Shown: positions 3,467 to 41,145 of the stretch, piece by piece
How positions within the stretch are numbered: position 1 is the stretch's first letter
How the letters are laid out: every line of letters starts with the position of its first letter
Source of the DNA: Verrucomicrobiota bacterium
Lineage (GTDB): Bacteria > Verrucomicrobiota > Verrucomicrobiia > Opitutales > Opitutaceae
Length of the DNA: 41,145 bases
Direction of reading: 5' to 3'
NCBI GenBank assembly: GCA_947471035.1
Contig: CANIWJ010000024.1
Span: 1 to 41,145 of the forward strand
Translations under genes and position numbers: made by a program
Notes under the pieces: generated by a model
The model's input: only the letters and a program-made list of their open reading frames with translations
The model's database searches: none
Told to the model about the DNA's origin: nothing

Positions 3467-4688
3467 TGCGCAGGGCCTCCACCGGTTTGAGTTTCGCGGC
3501 GCGCCAGGCGGGCAAGAGGCCGGCCAGGGTTGAGACGACCAAGGCACTGACGACGATCAAAGTGAGGTCTTTTCCCGAAAGATAGGCAGGCAACTGGCTG
3601 AATTGGTAAAAGCGGGCCAACGCTTCCTGGCTGCCGGTCAGGCGGGTGAAGCCCGCTACGATATCGTTGCGGAAATGGATCACGCTGAAGCCCAGCGCGA
3701 GGCCGGACACGGTTCCCGCGACGCCGATGATGATGCCTTGATAACAAAAACAGGCGGCGACCTGCCGGGGGGTGGCACCGAGCGCGCCGAGCAGGCCGAT
3801 CTCGCGGGTCTTGCGCACCACGGCAATGAGCAGGGAGGACGTGACCGAAAAGGCGGCGACCACGATGATGAACAAGAGGAGGAAAAAGATCATGTTTTTC
3901 TCCAGTTGGAGCACGAAGAGAAACTCCTGATTGGAGTCCATCCACGACTTGGCCAGCCCATCCACCGGCAGGGCCCGGTTGATCGCGCGGGCGACGTCGT
4001 CGGGGTCGGCTCCGGGGGCGAGTTTCACATTCACGCCATGGACGGCACGACCCAGGCCGTAGAGTTCCTGCATGGTGCGCAGGGTGACGATGACCACGCT
4101 GCTATCGAGTTGCTGGTGACCGATCTCGAAAATGCCGCAGACCTCGAGTTCGCGGGGCAGGAGGATTTCGTCGGTTTTGAGTTTTTCCAAGAGCAGCGGG
4201 GAATATACCGAGACCTTGCTGCCGAGGCGCGCGCCGAGCTGGACGGCGAGCTGGGAACTGAGGATAACGCGATCGTCGTCGAGGTCGTCGAACCGGCCGG
4301 CGACGATGTAGCGCCGCAAGGGCACGACCGCTTCCACCCGCTCCATGTCCACACCCTGAATGGCAGGGAAGGCGGGTTTGTTTTCGTGCTGGAGCATGAC
4401 CACGCCCTCGGCGAAGGGCGCGCTGGCCACCACGCCCTCGATGGCTCCGACGGTTTTTAACACCGCCTGCGGATCCTTCATGAGCCCGAAGGAGCGCACC
4501 TGCACCTCGCCCTGGGTGTTGACGATCATGTTGCGTATCTCGCGGCCGAAGCCGCCCATGACCGAAATGCAGACGATCAACAAGGCCACGCCCAAAGCCA
4601 CCCCGAGGATCGAGATCAGGGTGAAAAAGGGAAAGCGCCGCCCGGTCGGGAACAGCTGTTTCAGCGCGAGGTAGAGCGGCCAGGACAT
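3459..4688 (-). CDS. lolC: Lipoprotein-releasing ABC transporter permease LolC/LolE
   Basis: A 409-residue permease with the LolC/E layout: one N-terminal helix (about residues 21-45), a large periplasmic MacB-type domain (about 50-265), then three helices in the FtsX domain (near 270-300, 315-345 and 375-395). The opening MSWPLYLALKQLFPTGRR resembles LolC/E proteins. With LolD it should extract outer-membrane lipoproteins from the inner membrane. Only one permease gene is present, so the complex may be a LolC/E homodimer (LolF-like), as in many non-enteric bacteria, unless a second gene lies elsewhere. It starts 12 bp after lysS and overlaps lolD, so lysS-lolC-lolD is probably one transcript. 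Confidence 0.92.
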   Translation of the reverse strand: MSWPLYLALKQLFPTGRRFPFFTLISILGVALGVALLIVCISVMGGFGREIRNMIVNTQGEVQVRSFGLMKDPQAVLKTVGAIEGVVASAPFAEGVVMLQHENKPAFPAIQGVDMERVEAVVPLRRYIVAGRFDDLDDDRVILSSQLAVQLGARLGSKVSVYSPLLLEKLKTDEILLPRELEVCGIFEIGHQQLDSSVVIVTLRTMQELYGLGRAVHGVNVKLAPGADPDDVARAINRALPVDGLAKSWMDSNQEFLFVLQLEKNMIFFLLLFIIVVAAFSVTSSLLIAVVRKTREIGLLGALGATPRQVAACFCYQGIIIGVAGTVSGLALGFSVIHFRNDIVAGFTRLTGSQEALARFYQFSQLPAYLSGKDLTLIVVSALVVSTLAGLLPAWRAAKLKPVEALRSE

Positions 4689-19346: not shown

Positions 19347-19432
19347 TGGTGGTGCGAGCCGGATTCGAACCAGCGAACAGCAAGCTGAATTGATTTACAG
19401 TCAACGTCCTTTAGCCACTTGGATATCGCACC
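19347..19432 (-). tRNA. tRNA-Tyr (GTA)
   Basis: The minus strand folds as a class II tRNA. The 5' acceptor GGTGCGA pairs with TCGCACC, followed by discriminator A and an encoded CCA. The anticodon loop CTGTAAA sits in a GTTGA/TCAAT stem, giving anticodon GTA. A long variable arm (around TCAGCTTGCTG) and the T-loop TTCGAATC are clear. Length is 86 nt with CCA. It lies 60 bp downstream of radC and is followed by a strong terminator. Confidence 0.97.
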
Positions 19433-35086: not shown

Positions 35087-36169
35087 ATGAGCTACGAGAT
35101 GAACGATCTGCTCGACTTGGTGGTCGAGCAAAATGCCTCCGACCTTCACTGCCAAGTCGGGCAACCGCCGACCCTGCGTATTAGCGGCAGCATGGTGCCC
35201 ATCGAAGGCCCTAATCTCACGCCCAAGGACACCGAGCAGTTAATGCTCTCCATCACCCCCGACGCCCACCAGCAAAACGTCAAACTCCAGGGCGGCTCCG
35301 ACTTCGGCTTCGCCTTCATGGAAAAGGCGCGCTTTCGCGTTTCCATCCTCAAGTCCAAGGGAAACTACGGCATCGTACTGCGTCAGATTCCGAACAAAAT
35401 GTACGGACTGCGCGAAATCGGTCTGCCCGATAAAATCCGCGAACTCCTTTACCGTCCTCGCGGGCTGGTCCTCGTTACCGGCCCAACCGGCTCCGGCAAG
35501 TCCACCACGCTCGCCTCGATGGTGAATTATATTAACGAAAACCGCGAAGGGCACATCATCACGATCGAAGACCCGATCGAGTATTACCACCCGCACAAGC
35601 GCTGCATTGTTACCCAGCGCGAAATCGGCTCCGATGTCCCCAGCTTTTCGGAGGCGATCAAACGCGCCCTGCGCCAAGACCCCGATATTATTCTGGTCGG
35701 TGAAATGCGAGACTTGGAAACGATCGAAGCGGCCATCTCCGCCGCCGAAACCGGTCACTTGGTTTTCGGCACGCTGCACACCAACTCCGCCGCCAAAACC
35801 GTGGACCGTATCGTGGACGCGTTTCCCGCCAACATGAAGGAGATGATCCGCACTCAGCTGGCCTCGTCCTTGGTTGCGGTTATCGCCCAGACGCTTTGCA
35901 AAAAAATCGGCGGCGGGCGTATCGCCGGCTACGAGATCATGATCAACACGACCTCGATCGCCGCCATGATCCGCGAAAACAAAACCTTCCGTATCACCTC
36001 GGACATCCAAACCGGTGGAAATCTTGGCATGATCACCATGGACGCCCACCTGCTCAGCTTGGTGAATCGCCAACTCGTTTCCCCGGACGAGGCGCTCGAA
36101 AAAGCCCAGGATTCCCAGGCCATGCGCGAACGGCTGACTCAACTCGGTGCCACCTTGAAAACGCTCTAA
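35087..36169 (+). CDS. pilT: Type IV pilus retraction ATPase PilT
   Basis: A 360-residue PilT. Walker A is GPTGSGKST near residue 131, Walker [18 protein letters not shown] and the His box [23 protein letters not shown]. The absence of the zinc tetracysteine and the [10 protein letters not shown]-like C-terminal AIRE region (here MIRENKTF) fit PilT rather than PilB. It depolymerises pili for twitching motility and DNA uptake. It starts 29 bp after the first pilB-like gene. The second pilB-like gene follows after 180 bp that hold an inverted REP pair. Confidence 0.95.
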
Positions 36170-36197
36170 GTCTAATGCTCTTTCAAGTTGATCTGAA

Positions 36198-36280
36198 TTG
36201 GCCGGGACGGCCAACCCTACATGTGACGCATAGCTTACTCACATCAGGTGGTTTGTGTAGCGTTGGCCGTCCCCGGCCAA
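36198..36280. repeat. Inverted pair of GTAG-headed REP-like elements (BIME-like)
   Basis: The right unit on the plus strand (36257-36280) is GTAG, cg, then TTGGCCG-tccc-CGGCCAA minus nothing lost in the arms. The left unit on the minus strand (36220-36198) is GTAG, gg, then TTGGCCG-tcc-CGGCCAA. The two GTAG heads face inward. Between them ATGTGA (36221-36226) pairs with TCACAT (36239-36244), a third hairpin. The set fills the pilT to second pilB-like gap; the remaining bases to 36349 show no gene. Confidence 0.8.
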
Positions 36281-36349
36281 ATCCGGCATTTTGTTCACCT
36301 TGACTGCGAATTGGAATAAGTCGCCCTTTTTTAAAACATTCCCCGCCCC

Positions 36350-38047
36350 ATGTTTGAAGCCCACACATCCGCCATTTTAGAGCTTTGCCGCGCGCAAAGT
36401 CTGCTGGACGAGAAAGCTCTCACCGAGCTGCAAGACGAGCACCGTGCGACCGGCAAGTCCCTCGCCTCGCTTATCATCGACCTGAAGCTGCTGCCCAAGG
36501 ACACCTTCTTCGCAGCCGTGGCTGAATTCCTTGGTGCCGAGTATGTTGCCGATCTCCCATCTTCGGTATCGGGAGAAATCATCGCCCAGCTTTCCGCTCA
36601 ACACGCCCGCATGTATGGCGTGGTCCCGCTGCGCGCCGATGCGCAAAGCATCGATTTGTTGGCGGTGGATCCGTTTAACTCGCAGATCATCGACGACCTC
36701 ACTTTTGCCCTGCGCAAAGATATTCGTTTGATCGTCGCCGACCCCGACCGGGTGGAAGGCCTGCTGAAAAATCATTACGGGGAGGATGAATCGTCGCTCG
36801 ACGATATCCTGAACGAAATCACCTCCACCGAGCACGACAACACCAAGGGCGGCGAAGATCTCAACGTCAACGACCTTGAGGCGATGGCCGGCCAAGGGCC
36901 CATCATTCGCTTCGTCAACCTCGTGCTGGCCCAGGCGATTCGCGACAAGGCCTCCGACATTCATTTCGAGCCCTTTGAGCACGAGTTTAAAATCCGCTAT
37001 CGCATCGACGGCGCACTCTACGAGATGTCGCCCCCGCCCAAGCACCTCGCGCTGCCCATTACCTCACGCGTCAAAGTGTTGGCCAATCTCAACATCGCTG
37101 AACGCCGCATCCCGCAAGACGGACGCATCAAACTGACCCTCGCCGGCCGCCCGGTGGATTTGCGCGTTTCCACCCTCCCCACCCAGTTCGGCGAATCCGT
37201 GGTGCTCCGCGTGCTCGATCAAAGCGCGGTCCAGCTTGATATTTCCCAACTCGGCATGCCCGAGGATGTGTTCGAAGGCATCAGCGAGATCGTTCGCCGT
37301 CCCAACGGTATTTTCATCGTCACCGGCCCCACTGGTTCCGGTAAGACCACCACGCTCTACTCCGCCCTTCGCATCGTAAACACCCCCGATCTCAAACTCC
37401 TCACCGCCGAAGATCCGGTGGAATACGAGATCGAGGGCATCATGCAAGTGCCGGTAAATCATAACGTCGGCCTCACCTTCGCCGCCGCGCTCCGTTCCTT
37501 CCTGCGTCAAGACCCCGACATCATCATGGTGGGTGAAATCCGCGACTTGGAGACCGCCCAAATCTCCATTCAGGCATCCCTTACCGGTCACTTGGTGCTC
37601 TCAACTCTGCATACCAACGACGCCCCCGGTGCCGTAACCCGCCTCGTGGATATGGGCGTGGAACCCTTCCTCATCGCCTCCTCGCTGGAAGCCGTGCTCG
37701 CCCAACGTCTGGTGCGTCGTATCTGCTCGGGTTGCCGAACCGCTTACGAACCGCCGGGTACGCTTTTACAACAACTCGGAATCGACCCGGTGGACATCGG
37801 CAACCGCGAGTTTTTCTACGGCAAAGGCTGTCCGGTTTGTAATAACTCCGGTTACAAGGGACGTATGGGCATCTACGAATGGCTGCGCATGAGCGAGTCG
37901 ATACGCGATCTCGTGGTGCAACGCGCACCGACCTTGGTCATTAAACAAAAAGCCCTTGAGCAAGGTATGCGCACCTTGCGCGACGACGGGTTACGGGCCA
38001 TTTTTGACGGTGCTTCTTCCATCGAGGAAGTTGTGAAATACACCTAA
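36350..38047 (+). CDS. Type IV pilus/type II secretion assembly ATPase (PilB/GspE), second copy
   Basis: A 565-residue paralogue of the ATPase at 33333. An MshEN-like N-terminal domain (about 1-145, [28 protein letters not shown]) precedes the T2SSE core with Walker A GPTGSGKT near 325, Walker [18 protein letters not shown] and the His box HTNDAP. The zinc motif is CSGC (about 459) and CPVC (about 494). It keeps the standard [11 protein letters not shown]. It lies 102 bp before pilC, so it is probably the partner of that platform protein, while the first copy may serve a second machine. The 102-bp gap shows no gene and only a CTGAATTCAG palindrome. Confidence 0.9.
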
Positions 38048-38149: not shown

Positions 38150-39430
38150 ATGCCTAAGTTTACCTACATCGCCATCGAATCCTCCTCCGGCAAGGACAAG
38201 AAAGGCTCCATCGACAGCGCTTCCGCCGAACAAGCCGCCATTGACCTCAAGGCGATGGGGCTCCTCCCCACTTCGATCACCCTTGCTGGTGCCGCCGCCA
38301 AGCAGCCCTCAAAATCCGGTGCCAAAGGAACCGAAACCACCGCAGCGCCCAAGGCCAAGGGCAAAGGCTTTACTTTCGGTAAAGTAATTAACAATCAAGG
38401 ACTCGCGCTCTTTACTCGCCAGTTATCCACCTTGGTAAATGCGGGTATGCCCATCCTGCGCTCGCTCGAAACCCTCGCCCGCCAGGAGCGCAACTTGCCC
38501 TTCAAGGCGGTGCTCGAACAAGTGGCGGAAAGCATTCGTTCCGGCGGCACCTTCTCCGACGGCTTGCTGCAACACCCCAAGGTCTTCGACCGCCTCTACG
38601 TTAACATGGTGAAGGCCGGTGAAGCGGGCGGCGTGCTTGGCACCGTGCTCGACCGCCTCGCGAAGTTTATGGAAAAGGCCGAGAAGATCAAAGGGAAGGT
38701 CAAAGCCGCGATGACCTATCCGGTCATTATTATGGTGGTGGCCGTGCTGATCGTCTCCGCGCTGATGGTATTCGTTATTCCTAAATTCGAGGAGATTTTC
38801 GCCAGCCTGCTCAAGGGTGCCTCCCTACCGCCGCTTACCCAATTCGTCTTGGCGGTGTCCAACTTCATGAAGAACAACATTCTCATAACCATTGGGTTGT
38901 GCTTCGGTGGTTACTTTGCATTCAAAGCTTTTCGCAATACCCCAAAGGGCACACGCATCATTGATTATATTCAGATCAACGTGCCGGCTTTCGGCCCGCT
39001 CTTCCTGAAGGCCTCGGTCGGACGCTTTACCCGCACCTTCGGCACCTTGCTATCGTCCGGCGTGCCGATCCTTCAGGCATTAACTATCACGAGTGACACC
39101 TCCGGCAACGTGCACATCGCCGAGGCGCTTAAGGCCGTTCACGACCGCGTGAAAGAAGGCGAAGGCGTGGGCAAGCCCCTCGAAGCCACCGGTATTTTCC
39201 CCACCATGGTTACTTCCATGGTCGAAGTCGGCGAGGAAACCGGCGCCCTGCCTGACATGTTGACCCGCATCGCCGACACCTACGACGACGAAGTGGACAA
39301 CGCTGTGACTTCCATCACTTCGATCATCGAGCCGATCATGATCGTATTCATGGCGGTGGTGGTCGGCACCATCGTTATCGCGCTGTTCCTCCCACTGGTG
39401 AAGATCATCCAGACGCTCTCCAGCGGTTGA
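38150..39430 (+). CDS. pilC: Type IV pilus inner-membrane platform protein PilC (GspF family)
   Basis: A 426-residue GspF/PilC protein. The N-terminal MPKFTYIAIESSSGKDKKGSID matches the family, then a Lys/Ala-rich linker (about 45-80) and two T2SSF domains (about 85-210 and 290-412) containing FTRQLSTLVNAGMPILRSLETL and FTRTFGTLLSSGVPILQALTI. Three membrane helices are near 190-212, 240-260 and 392-420. It is the platform that the PilB/PilT motors turn. The second PilB-like gene is just upstream; pilin, pilM-Q and prepilin peptidase genes are not in the window. A strong terminator follows. Confidence 0.95.
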   Translation: MPKFTYIAIESSSGKDKKGSIDSASAEQAAIDLKAMGLLPTSITLAGAAAKQPSKSGAKGTETTAAPKAKGKGFTFGKVINNQGLALFTRQLSTLVNAGMPILRSLETLARQERNLPFKAVLEQVAESIRSGGTFSDGLLQHPKVFDRLYVNMVKAGEAGGVLGTVLDRLAKFMEKAEKIKGKVKAAMTYPVIIMVVAVLIVSALMVFVIPKFEEIFASLLKGASLPPLTQFVLAVSNFMKNNILITIGLCFGGYFAFKAFRNTPKGTRIIDYIQINVPAFGPLFLKASVGRFTRTFGTLLSSGVPILQALTITSDTSGNVHIAEALKAVHDRVKEGEGVGKPLEATGIFPTMVTSMVEVGEETGALPDMLTRIADTYDDEVDNAVTSITSIIEPIMIVFMAVVVGTIVIALFLPLVKIIQTLSSG

Positions 39431-39454: not shown

Positions 39455-39486
39455 AAAAGCCCCGTGACTCAAATCACGGGGCTTTT
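39455..39486 (+). terminator. Rho-independent terminator after pilC
   Basis: AAAAGCCCCGTGA (39455-39467) pairs perfectly with TCACGGGGCTTTT (39474-39486) around CTCAAA, followed by TTGTTGTT. It closes the pilus operon. Confidence 0.93.
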
Positions 39487-39630: not shown

Positions 39631-39690
39631 TCACCCGCGTCATTCCCACCCGCCACCCAGCCACCCATACACGGCACATCCCTTTCGCGC
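39631..39690 (+). promoter_or_regulatory. C-rich, G-poor leader tract (possible Rho utilisation site)
   Basis: By hand count, 32 of these 60 bases are C and 8 are G, with four CACCC motifs and no obvious hairpin before 39689. Rho loads on such unstructured C-rich RNA. It lies inside the untranslated leader of the last gene. No rut motif search was possible. Confidence 0.35.
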
Positions 39691-39844
39691 AGCTTCGGCT
39701 GCTGTCCGACAACGAAGCCTGGAAACTTCTTGGACACGAAAAGCGCATCGATTCGCGCCCCGACCTGGGGCGCATCGAAAGCGTCTTTTCGTAGGCTCTT
39801 CCAGGCGCCTGTTGTCGGGACGTTAGTAAGTGCGTCCCTCTTTT
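39689..39844 (+). ncRNA. Structured leader with competing hairpins (candidate cis-regulatory RNA)
   Basis: A UUCG hairpin (GCAGC-TTCG-GCTGC, 39689-39702) is followed by a long imperfect stem. GTCCGACAAC (39704-39713) pairs with GTTGTCGGGAC (39811-39821), GCCTGGAA (39717-39724) with TTCCAGGC (39799-39806), ACGAAAAG-CGC (39736-39746) with GCGTCTTTTCGT (39781-39792), and GCGCCCC (39755-39761) with GGGGCGC (39767-39773). Alternatively GGGACG (39817-39822) pairs with CGTCCC (39833-39838), followed by TCTTTT and the ATG. The two states share GGGAC and exclude each other, as in riboswitches or attenuators. I recognise no known riboswitch class. Confidence 0.55.
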
Positions 39845-41145
39845 ATGTCCTCAGTACACCGCTTCTTATTTATTTCCCGTTTGGTTCTTGGATTTGCCGC
39901 CGCTGTACTCGGCCTGTCGGCGCAGACGACATTTTACGACTGGCAGCCGACTGTATTTGCCGAGGCAGACTGGTATAACGATGCGGTGAGCGGCGTTTCC
40001 GCCGACCCCGACCTCGATGGGCTGCGCAATCTGGAGGAGTTTGCATTTTTCACCCCGCCGCTAAGCGCCAACTCAGCCACCCTCGCGCCCCGCTTGGAAC
40101 AGGTCGGCTCCAATCTCACTCTGACCTTCCGCGAGCGTCAGGGATTGGCTGATGTCGATATTCGCCTGCAAGGCTCGGATACGCTCACCAGTTGGATAAC
40201 CTATAACAACCTTACCGAGGTCGATCGCGTCGCCTTCTCCGGCTACGATGAAGTGACTTTGCTGGATCCCCAGCCCTATTCCAACGCCGCGCCTGCGCGG
40301 CGTTTTTTGCGCCTTCGTCTTGAAACGCCGGTTCCCACCGAACTTCGCCCGCCGGTGCAGCTTTCCCTCGGGTTGGCTCCCGCCGCGCCGCAGAGTTGGA
40401 GTGTAAGTTGGACCGATCCCAACGGCTTTGAAACCGGCCACCGCATAGAGCGCCGCCTGCTCGCCGACGGTACATGGCAAGTGGTGGGTTCTACCGCTGC
40501 CGATACTGGCACCTTTACCCACACCACCGCCGATTACCAGCAAAGCCTGACTTACCGGGTCTCTGCTTTGGCTTCCGGAGGAAAGATCGCGACTTCCACG
40601 CCGGTAAGCCTGCCCGACACCGACGGCGACGGTATTCCTGATGCATTGGAGCTTCAAACCGCATACACCGGTGTAGAAGGCACTTTTGCCAGCGACCCCA
40701 ATAGTTTTTCCAGCAACGGCAGTGGAGTCTCTGACGGCTGGCAGGCCGCCAACGGTTACAACCCCGCTTCTTCCTTTAATGGACAAGTGGATAGCGACGG
40801 CGATGGTCTGAGTGATTACGAAGAATATAAACTGGGCACTAATCCGCGTAAGAAAGATTCCGACGACGACGGCATAGAGGACCCATTGGATGGCTGGGCG
40901 ATGGTATCCGCATTGGCTCCAGTCAGGCTGGAAGCTCCCACCTACGCGCTTATTCCGATTGGTCCGGCCGGTTCCTACGCAACGGAAATTAATAATAATG
41001 GGCAGGCATTGATCAAAAACCTGATTGGCGACTGGTGTTTACTTAACGGAGGAATAACAAGCCCATTGCAAGCACCTCCAGGCCGATCCTTCTCATCTGT
41101 TTATGAACTCCGTGATGATGGCGGTTTGCTAGCTGCGACCGAATC
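39845..41145 (+). CDS. Secreted protein with FN3-like, thrombospondin type 3 and HAF-like repeats, partial
   Basis: The frame is open to the right edge; 433 residues are visible. A signal peptide (FLFISRLVLGFAAAVLGLSAQ, cleavage near residue 28) is followed by ADPDLDGLRNLEEFAFF, a motif common in verrucomicrobial exported proteins. A fibronectin-III-like domain (about 175-245, SVSWTDPNGFETGHRIERR) comes next. Calcium-type thrombospondin-3 repeats lie near 258 (DTDGDGIPD), 316 (DSDGDGLSD) and 338 (DSDDDGIED). From about 375 the pattern YALIPIGPAGSYATEINNNG resembles HAF extracellular repeats. It is likely exported and Ca2+-binding; further function is unknown. The ATG directly follows a terminator-like hairpin and has no Shine-Dalgarno motif. 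Confidence 0.85.
   Translation, partial: MSSVHRFLFISRLVLGFAAAVLGLSAQTTFYDWQPTVFAEADWYNDAVSGVSADPDLDGLRNLEEFAFFTPPLSANSATLAPRLEQVGSNLTLTFRERQGLADVDIRLQGSDTLTSWITYNNLTEVDRVAFSGYDEVTLLDPQPYSNAAPARRFLRLRLETPVPTELRPPVQLSLGLAPAAPQSWSVSWTDPNGFETGHRIERRLLADGTWQVVGSTAADTGTFTHTTADYQQSLTYRVSALASGGKIATSTPVSLPDTDGDGIPDALELQTAYTGVEGTFASDPNSFSSNGSGVSDGWQAANGYNPASSFNGQVDSDGDGLSDYEEYKLGTNPRKKDSDDDGIEDPLDGWAMVSALAPVRLEAPTYALIPIGPAGSYATEINNNGQALIKNLIGDWCLLNGGITSPLQAPPGRSFSSVYELRDDGGLLAATE

Follow-up and report, generated by a model that had tools for sequence, protein, structure and literature searches.

A conserved structured RNA of Verrucomicrobiota upstream of restriction-modification and secreted-type genes, a candidate two-state leader

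We describe a structured RNA of Verrucomicrobiota which we regard, on balance, as a new class of cis-acting leader RNA that controls the adjacent downstream gene, probably as a two-state switch. Its conservation, its covariation, its position and its gene association were established computationally. The copy from which the analysis started is located near the end of a window of 41,145 nt (the whole stretch of contig CANIWJ010000024.1 that was analysed, from a member of the Opitutaceae), and its features are compiled in Table 1.

Table 1. Features of the RNA element and of its immediate surroundings (window coordinates)
Feature	Position	Strand	Remarks
RNA element, short form	39683-39847	+	165 nt; 5' end UUUCGCG, 3' end AUG
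G-poor, A/C-rich stretch before the element	39640-39682	+	family-wide trait
H1, UUCG-capped hairpin	39689-39693/39698-39702	+	99.4% of cells paired, zero double changes
P1	39707-39713/39811-39817	+	P1a vs P1b, alignment-free z 36, 110 copies
P2	39717-39724/39799-39806	+	P2a vs P2b, alignment-free z 27
P3	39736-39746/39781-39792	+	alignment-free z 21; capped by P4
P4	39748-39761/39767-39778	+	predicted fold; caps P3
3' strand (P2b, GGCGCC junction, P1b)	39799-39817	+	target of the imitating segment in long-form copies
H5, terminator-like hairpin	39818-39824/39830-39837	+	followed by UCUUUU and the ATG at 39845; whole feature 39818-39844
Helix a, alternative (UGUCC/GGACA)	39703-39707/39732-39736	+	compensatory variants elsewhere in the family; permutation z -4.7, 111 copies
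Helix c, alternative (GAAG/CUUC; P2a in the loop)	39714-39730	+	compensatory forms in other copies
Downstream gene	39845-41143, truncated by the contig end	+	signal-like N-terminus; bacterial TSP3 repeats (Pfam PF18884, E 5.7e-10)

The preliminary description of this DNA had reported complementary blocks that form a long hairpin, followed by a terminator-like hairpin at the start codon. The blocks were recovered at the positions described, and their pairing is beyond chance. The element folds with -78.9 kcal/mol compared with -53.1 kcal/mol (sd 4.1) for shuffled sequences (z -6.3; none of 200 shuffles was as good), and together with its flanks it has a folding z of -5.75 against shuffled sequence. 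H5 was also picked up by a terminator scan (39817-39838).

According to the sequence comparisons, the hairpins are one copy of a conserved structured RNA family of Verrucomicrobiota. A DNA search located the element at six places in the source genome, the window counted. At two of the other places (C40 and C102) the match continues into related genes, at C27 it stops where a similar secreted-type gene starts, and at C6 it is interrupted by the contig end; C155 (L011) precedes a DNA methyltransferase gene, and there the similarity is confined to the element. A further DNA search gave matches in 14 of 57 related genomes, some of them short and partial. Cultured carriers are Geminisphaera colitermitum TAV2, with a short form (L143, taken to be the same place as L087) and a long form (L088), and Ereboglobus sp. 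PH5-10, with a long form (L177/L084). A covariance model, R1, was built from 25 copies, and its best match is the window element (184 bits). R1 matched in 33 of 200 genomes drawn at family level, 9 of 273 at order level, 46 of 384 at class level and 21 of 387 at phylum level, all of these counts being lower bounds (7 to 14 candidates were scored per genome) from draws that overlap. Searched exactly in GTDB contigs, a 23-base pattern taken from the 5' end of the element occurs in at least 114 stretches. Among the 80 pattern matches listed, most contigs are titled Verrucomicrobia(ota) or subgroups thereof and some merely 'bacterium'; the few titled Deltaproteobacteria, Proteobacteria or Actinomycetota may be misbinned. 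R1 matches all 80 listed contigs, on four of them with an incomplete copy. Its 85 matches on these contigs were reduced to 77 by excluding the four incomplete copies and four weak antisense matches, and with 65 others they make up 142 copies, of which 116 are distinct.

On the Rfam search a known RNA family was rejected. No Rfam 15 family reached its gathering threshold at the window element or in seven long-form loci, and the best sub-threshold matches are at chance level (E 3.8 on the opposite strand; E 2.2 and 5.8 for microRNA families), in agreement with the earlier statement that the RNA matches no known class. Across the whole window a tRNA gene (19350-19432, minus strand) was the only feature to reach an Rfam gathering threshold. 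In another locus, L191, an Acido-Lenti-1 RNA (RF01687, 40 bits; 3887-3932, plus strand) lies about 290 nt upstream of the element copy.

The stems were assessed with and without an alignment. In the alignment search 15 of the 116 copies were excluded as weak, incomplete or near-duplicate, and the output comprised 101 matches from 100 sources. This alignment was fitted to the proposed structure and is biased in its favour, which applies to the following figures: standard pairs make up 92.4% of the 4598 cells, double changes are found at 33 of 46 pairs (745 cells), none of 500 shuffles matches any of these measures, and shifting the helix register lowers the pairing to 38-52%. For H5, 98% of the cells are paired across the 101 copies. 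In the alignment-free test the 5' piece of each copy was compared with its own 3' piece and with those of other copies, which was possible for the 110 of 116 copies that could be anchored. The resulting z values are 36 for P1, 27 for P2 and 21 for P3, whereas three mismatched combinations gave values near 0; as the copies share descent, permutation z values are not to be read as probabilities. We take the RNA structure to be under selection. The proposal of a leader-type RNA thereby gained a conserved family with compensatory stem changes, and conservation of the stems in homologues, which had been set beforehand as a test, is present. Single copies deviate when inspected by eye: at the one place represented by L036 and L135 (L036 1501-1665) P1a fails to match P1b, as if two copies had recombined, and a clear H5 is lost in the copy represented by L023 and L124. 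The tract that follows H5 is U-rich, with a mean of 5.9 T in 8 nt and at least five T in 101 of the 116 copies, a count that is biased upwards by picking the best C-run of each copy.

Common to the copies is a 5' domain of about 165 nt consisting of H1, the P1-P4 hairpin and the abutting H5. The copies occur in two forms, a long one (72 of the 116 distinct copies) and a short one (42 copies, that of the window included). These numbers result from a correction by eye, made with the gene column visible, of an automatic split into 79 long, 35 short and 2 undetermined copies; ten copies were transferred to the short form (hexamer match, no further 3' domain) and three to the long form. In the long form a segment imitating the 5' strand comes after H5, and next to it a hairpin that abuts the start codon. 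The start codon lies at a median of 73 nt past the element in the long form and at -1 nt in the short form, so that the earlier observation of a U-tract touching the start codon holds for the short forms and does not extend to the long form.

The imitating segment opens with a hexamer complementary to the P2b-P1b junction and continues with sequence complementary to P3b. Hexamer and junction change together (GGUGCC/GGCACC, AGUGCC/GGCACU, CGUGCC/GGCACG, AAUGCC/GGCAUU). When the segment was paired with its own 3' strand and with the 3' strands of other copies, the own partner was strongly favoured (70 copies; z -14.9, 0 of 5000 permutations), for P3b (z -11.7) as well as for the P2b-P1b part (z -7.0); the control, in which the 5' strand was matched against the 3' domain, was slightly favoured too (z -1.8). 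The arms of the hairpin at the start codon also pair copy-specifically (z -10.8; 57 of the 72 long copies, those with a recognised loop). The 5' strand for its part can form two helices of its own, a and c (Table 1). Helix c was found in 111 of 116 copies in forms such as CGAAA/UUUCG, CAAAA/UUUUG and AGAAA/UUUCU, by a search that demanded a [GA]AA left arm and is biased accordingly. The short forms retain helices a and c without having the imitating segment.

The predicted folds separate the two forms. Of 70 long forms, 59 have the 3' strand paired with the imitating segment and nine with the 5' strand of the copy, with two ties; of 39 short forms, 36 keep it with the 5' strand and three were scored as pairing it with the imitating segment. 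With the 5' domain folded alone, the 5' strand of the copy is the closing partner in 69 of the 70 long and 37 of the 39 short forms. Judged from sequence and from these predictions, mutually exclusive folds are confined to the long form and absent from the short form of the window; the true exclusion in the long form is, as modelled, that between the 5' strand and the downstream segment imitating it.

The first seven nucleotides of the element, UUUCGCG, can pair with CGCGA(G), the conserved loop of the start-codon hairpin. This complementarity is present in 50 of 71 long forms, compared with 19 of 71 after shuffling, and in 6 of 42 short forms, compared with 4 after shuffling. The sole varying position does not follow cleanly. 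A long-range kissing contact between these nucleotides and the loop is possible in the long forms.

The element stands in front of genes. A co-directional open reading frame of at least 150 aa that starts at most 150 nt downstream was found at 85 of 98 copies and at 33 of 102 mirrored positions. For the analysis of the first genes 108 proteins were scanned, each cut at 430 aa, as eight of the 116 copies lack a first open reading frame under the rule used; the genes upstream of the element served as controls (111, two of 113 at contig ends being left out). With a crude test, a motif of restriction-modification or helicase proteins was detected in 34 of 69 long-form and 1 of 39 short-form first genes (33 of 76 and 2 of 32 with the automatic split) and in 1 of the 111 upstream neighbours. 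Signal-like, secreted-looking first genes were distributed the other way round, with 2 of 69 behind the long and 23 of 39 behind the short form (automatic split, 7 of 76 and 18 of 32). PADLOC assigned the downstream genes to 233 families, with MTase_III in up to 25 of the 108, and the 111 upstream controls to 25 families with one member each, MTase_III not being among them.

The first genes were also assigned to Pfam families. Behind the 69 long forms N6_N4_Mtase (24) and ResIII (12) were found, furthermore SNF2, DEAD, PLDc_2, Mrr, C5 methylase, MmeI, EcoRI methylase, BrxA and DUF1156, where 25 of the 29 families were listed and families overlap within proteins. Long forms further precede glycosyltransferases (3 and 2), an acyltransferase and a RadC-like protein. 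The 39 short-form first genes gave TSP3 (5), Ig, RCC1, a peptidase and an AraC-type regulator, and additionally restriction-modification-type matches with one member per family, which we take to be those of L101. Reverse transcriptase, the neighbour that a retron would have, was absent among the first-gene Pfam families listed (25 of 48, 25 of 29 and 20 of 20; proteins cut at 430 aa). Judged by the motif and signal counts, the long form is placed before DNA-modifying genes and the short form before secreted-type proteins. In 12 genomes selected as carriers of the RNA, 9 of the strongest 24 PF01555 genes belong, by eye, to the run of genes that follows a copy, where seven come first and two further down; the RNA therefore marks a subset of such operons. 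For the gene of the window, GTG at 39830 was considered as an alternative start codon and judged unlikely; an extra T breaks this frame in the related copies L013, L027, L036 and L040.

The sequence directly before the element is poor in G. In the preceding 30 nt the mean G content is 8% (114 copies), and the preceding 40 nt are A/C-rich with 5-15% G (112-114 copies). This stretch is possibly an unstructured transcript start. A promoter search gave slight excesses of a TTGACA-like sequence near -95 and of TAnnnT near -60 and -80, and the combined promoter scores resembled those of shuffled sequence (a score of at least 8 in 37 of 112 copies vs 30 shuffled). In the window the two genes before the element (38150-39430 and 35087-38047) are type II secretion/pilus-like. 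The one directly upstream encodes by its sequence a T2SSF-like membrane protein; T2SSF occurs once among the upstream controls. Past the end of this gene at 39430 there is a perfect 13-bp inverted repeat (39455-39486) with T-rich sequence after it, which resembles an ordinary terminator.

We propose the following mechanism for the long form. In state A the two strands of the 5' domain would form P1-P3. State B would have the 5' strand folded into helices a and c, with the 3' strand paired to the imitating segment, by which the stretch ahead of the start codon would be captured. An input acting on the conserved 5' domain would choose between A and B, and the choice would set the expression of the restriction-modification operons and of those related to them; H5 would contribute termination. 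Since the imitating segment is made after H5, the choice between A and B would act more naturally on translation or stability than on H5. In the short form of the window, ahead of the secreted-type TSP3 protein, control might be exerted via H5 and the adjacent start codon. No single ligand is suggested, because the genes behind long forms include glycosyltransferases and further types. That there is one leader transcript, that it is terminated at H5 and that it switches, as well as the trigger and the direction of the response, we infer from the arrangement described. Helices a and c are kept in the short forms, which counts against the switch model and is not explained by it. The nine of 70 long forms predicted to fold as state A, and the two ties, likewise speak against a two-state reading.

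The preliminary description had placed the exclusion elsewhere, namely between the long hairpin and the terminator-like hairpin as in a classical attenuator. P1 and a sixth pair of H5 do share one G, and UGUCC could also reach an arm of H5. The two hairpins, however, abut and coexist in the minimum-energy fold; G39817 is the only base claimed by both, and the predicted fold places it in H5. P1 moreover reaches exactly to H5, because the base 3' of P1b follows the base 5' of P1a: in the 12 anchored copies in which the latter is not C the former matches in 11 (ten Watson-Crick pairs and one G-U pair; the exception is L133), as read by eye, with C in 89 further copies and nine of 110 copies not anchorable. 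An extension of P1 by UGUCC into H5, by which it would serve as an antiterminator, was examined and rejected: by eye, several variants of UGUCC have a matching GGACA partner (e.g., in L123, L125 and L127), so that it is this partner and not H5 that follows the variants. No antiterminator that excludes H5 was found among the copies. The exclusion of the two hairpins thus had to be given up, and we consider a classical attenuator of this kind highly improbable.

Other explanations dispense with switching or with control of the adjacent gene. A passive or constitutive leader might insulate the gene from upstream transcription, protect the end of the mRNA or present the start codon, and the start codon does abut a covarying hairpin in the long form or the tail of H5 in the short form; separate compensatory changes for both folds nevertheless exceed what such a role needs, and we hold it to be unlikely. 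H5 with its U-rich tail would also make a natural 3' end for a self-contained small RNA that acts in trans or binds the encoded proteins, RNA and gene being merely neighbouring partners. A noncoding RNA beside an Abi gene of C. difficile is reported to work in this way (PMC12373285). Yet the long forms continue in a covarying domain up to the start codon, the start codon touches the tail in the short forms, and the downstream proteins are too varied for one RNA partner, which makes the small RNA quite unlikely in our view. The element is, finally, multi-copy and patchy (six places in the source genome, 33 of 200 family genomes), as a REP- or MITE-like mobile repeat inserting before genes would be. 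Its orientation, on the contrary, follows the downstream gene (85 of 98 vs 33 of 102 mirrored), the compensatory changes are copy-specific and the gene class differs between the forms. Furthermore, blastn with one copy each gave no plasmid or phage match, and the 23-base pattern had no exact match in viral contigs. Insertion regardless of gene starts and orientation was not found. The suspicion of a scattered repeat is hence correct for the family as such and wrong for a random mobile element, since the copies precede gene starts; a mobile repeat appears very improbable.

A leader RNA with two alternative folds, the reading we prefer, has its nearest counterparts among known leaders. Like riboswitches and other leaders with alternative folds, the element combines a covarying domain upstream of a gene with an alternative strand partner and a terminator-like hairpin, and it possesses a conserved aptamer-like domain in the leader as judged by covariation, the alignment-free test and position. 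Unlike riboswitches it serves unrelated restriction-modification operons as well as secreted-type genes, and its alternative strand lies beyond the terminator-like hairpin. By kind it would be a leader-RNA switch, while membership of the riboswitches would require a ligand. In trp-type attenuators successive strands pair alternatively and a terminator-like hairpin is present, features shared by the element, in which H5 provides a stem followed by a U-rich tract. In contrast to these attenuators, the terminator-like hairpin is not among the alternatives and no antiterminator was found.

Regulators common to diverse defence or restriction systems have been described in BrxR (PMC9122601) and RptR (PMC12255303), which are reported to be proteins that regulate defence islands; in serving diverse systems with one type of regulator they resemble the element, but they are DNA-binding proteins and the element is an RNA leader. 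RCd22, the noncoding RNA of the AbiF system of C. difficile, is reported to be an RNA antitoxin that binds the Abi protein; like the element it adjoins a defence gene, the expression of which it lowers, and unlike the element it belongs to one system (PMC12373285). A literature search within a PMC library yielded no paper that we recognised as describing this RNA, and no RNA leader common to unrelated restriction systems.

Restriction systems can kill their own host, and the timing of restriction-gene expression is therefore an open question. The shared regulators of restriction and defence found in the literature searched are proteins; the element, with two conserved folds and many unrelated restriction operons behind it, opens this question to tests on RNA. 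Model R1 provides a searchable marker for such restriction operons in Verrucomicrobiota, and the element defines an RNA class for which an input can be looked for. More tentatively, a phylum-wide RNA switch can be envisaged that might place unrelated restriction-modification systems (type I, type III, cytosine-5, MmeI-like and BrxA-containing) and cell-surface genes under one intracellular signal by means of two separately conserved folds. If true, an RNA leader class, to our knowledge without precedent in this role, would act as a general regulator of anti-phage defence.
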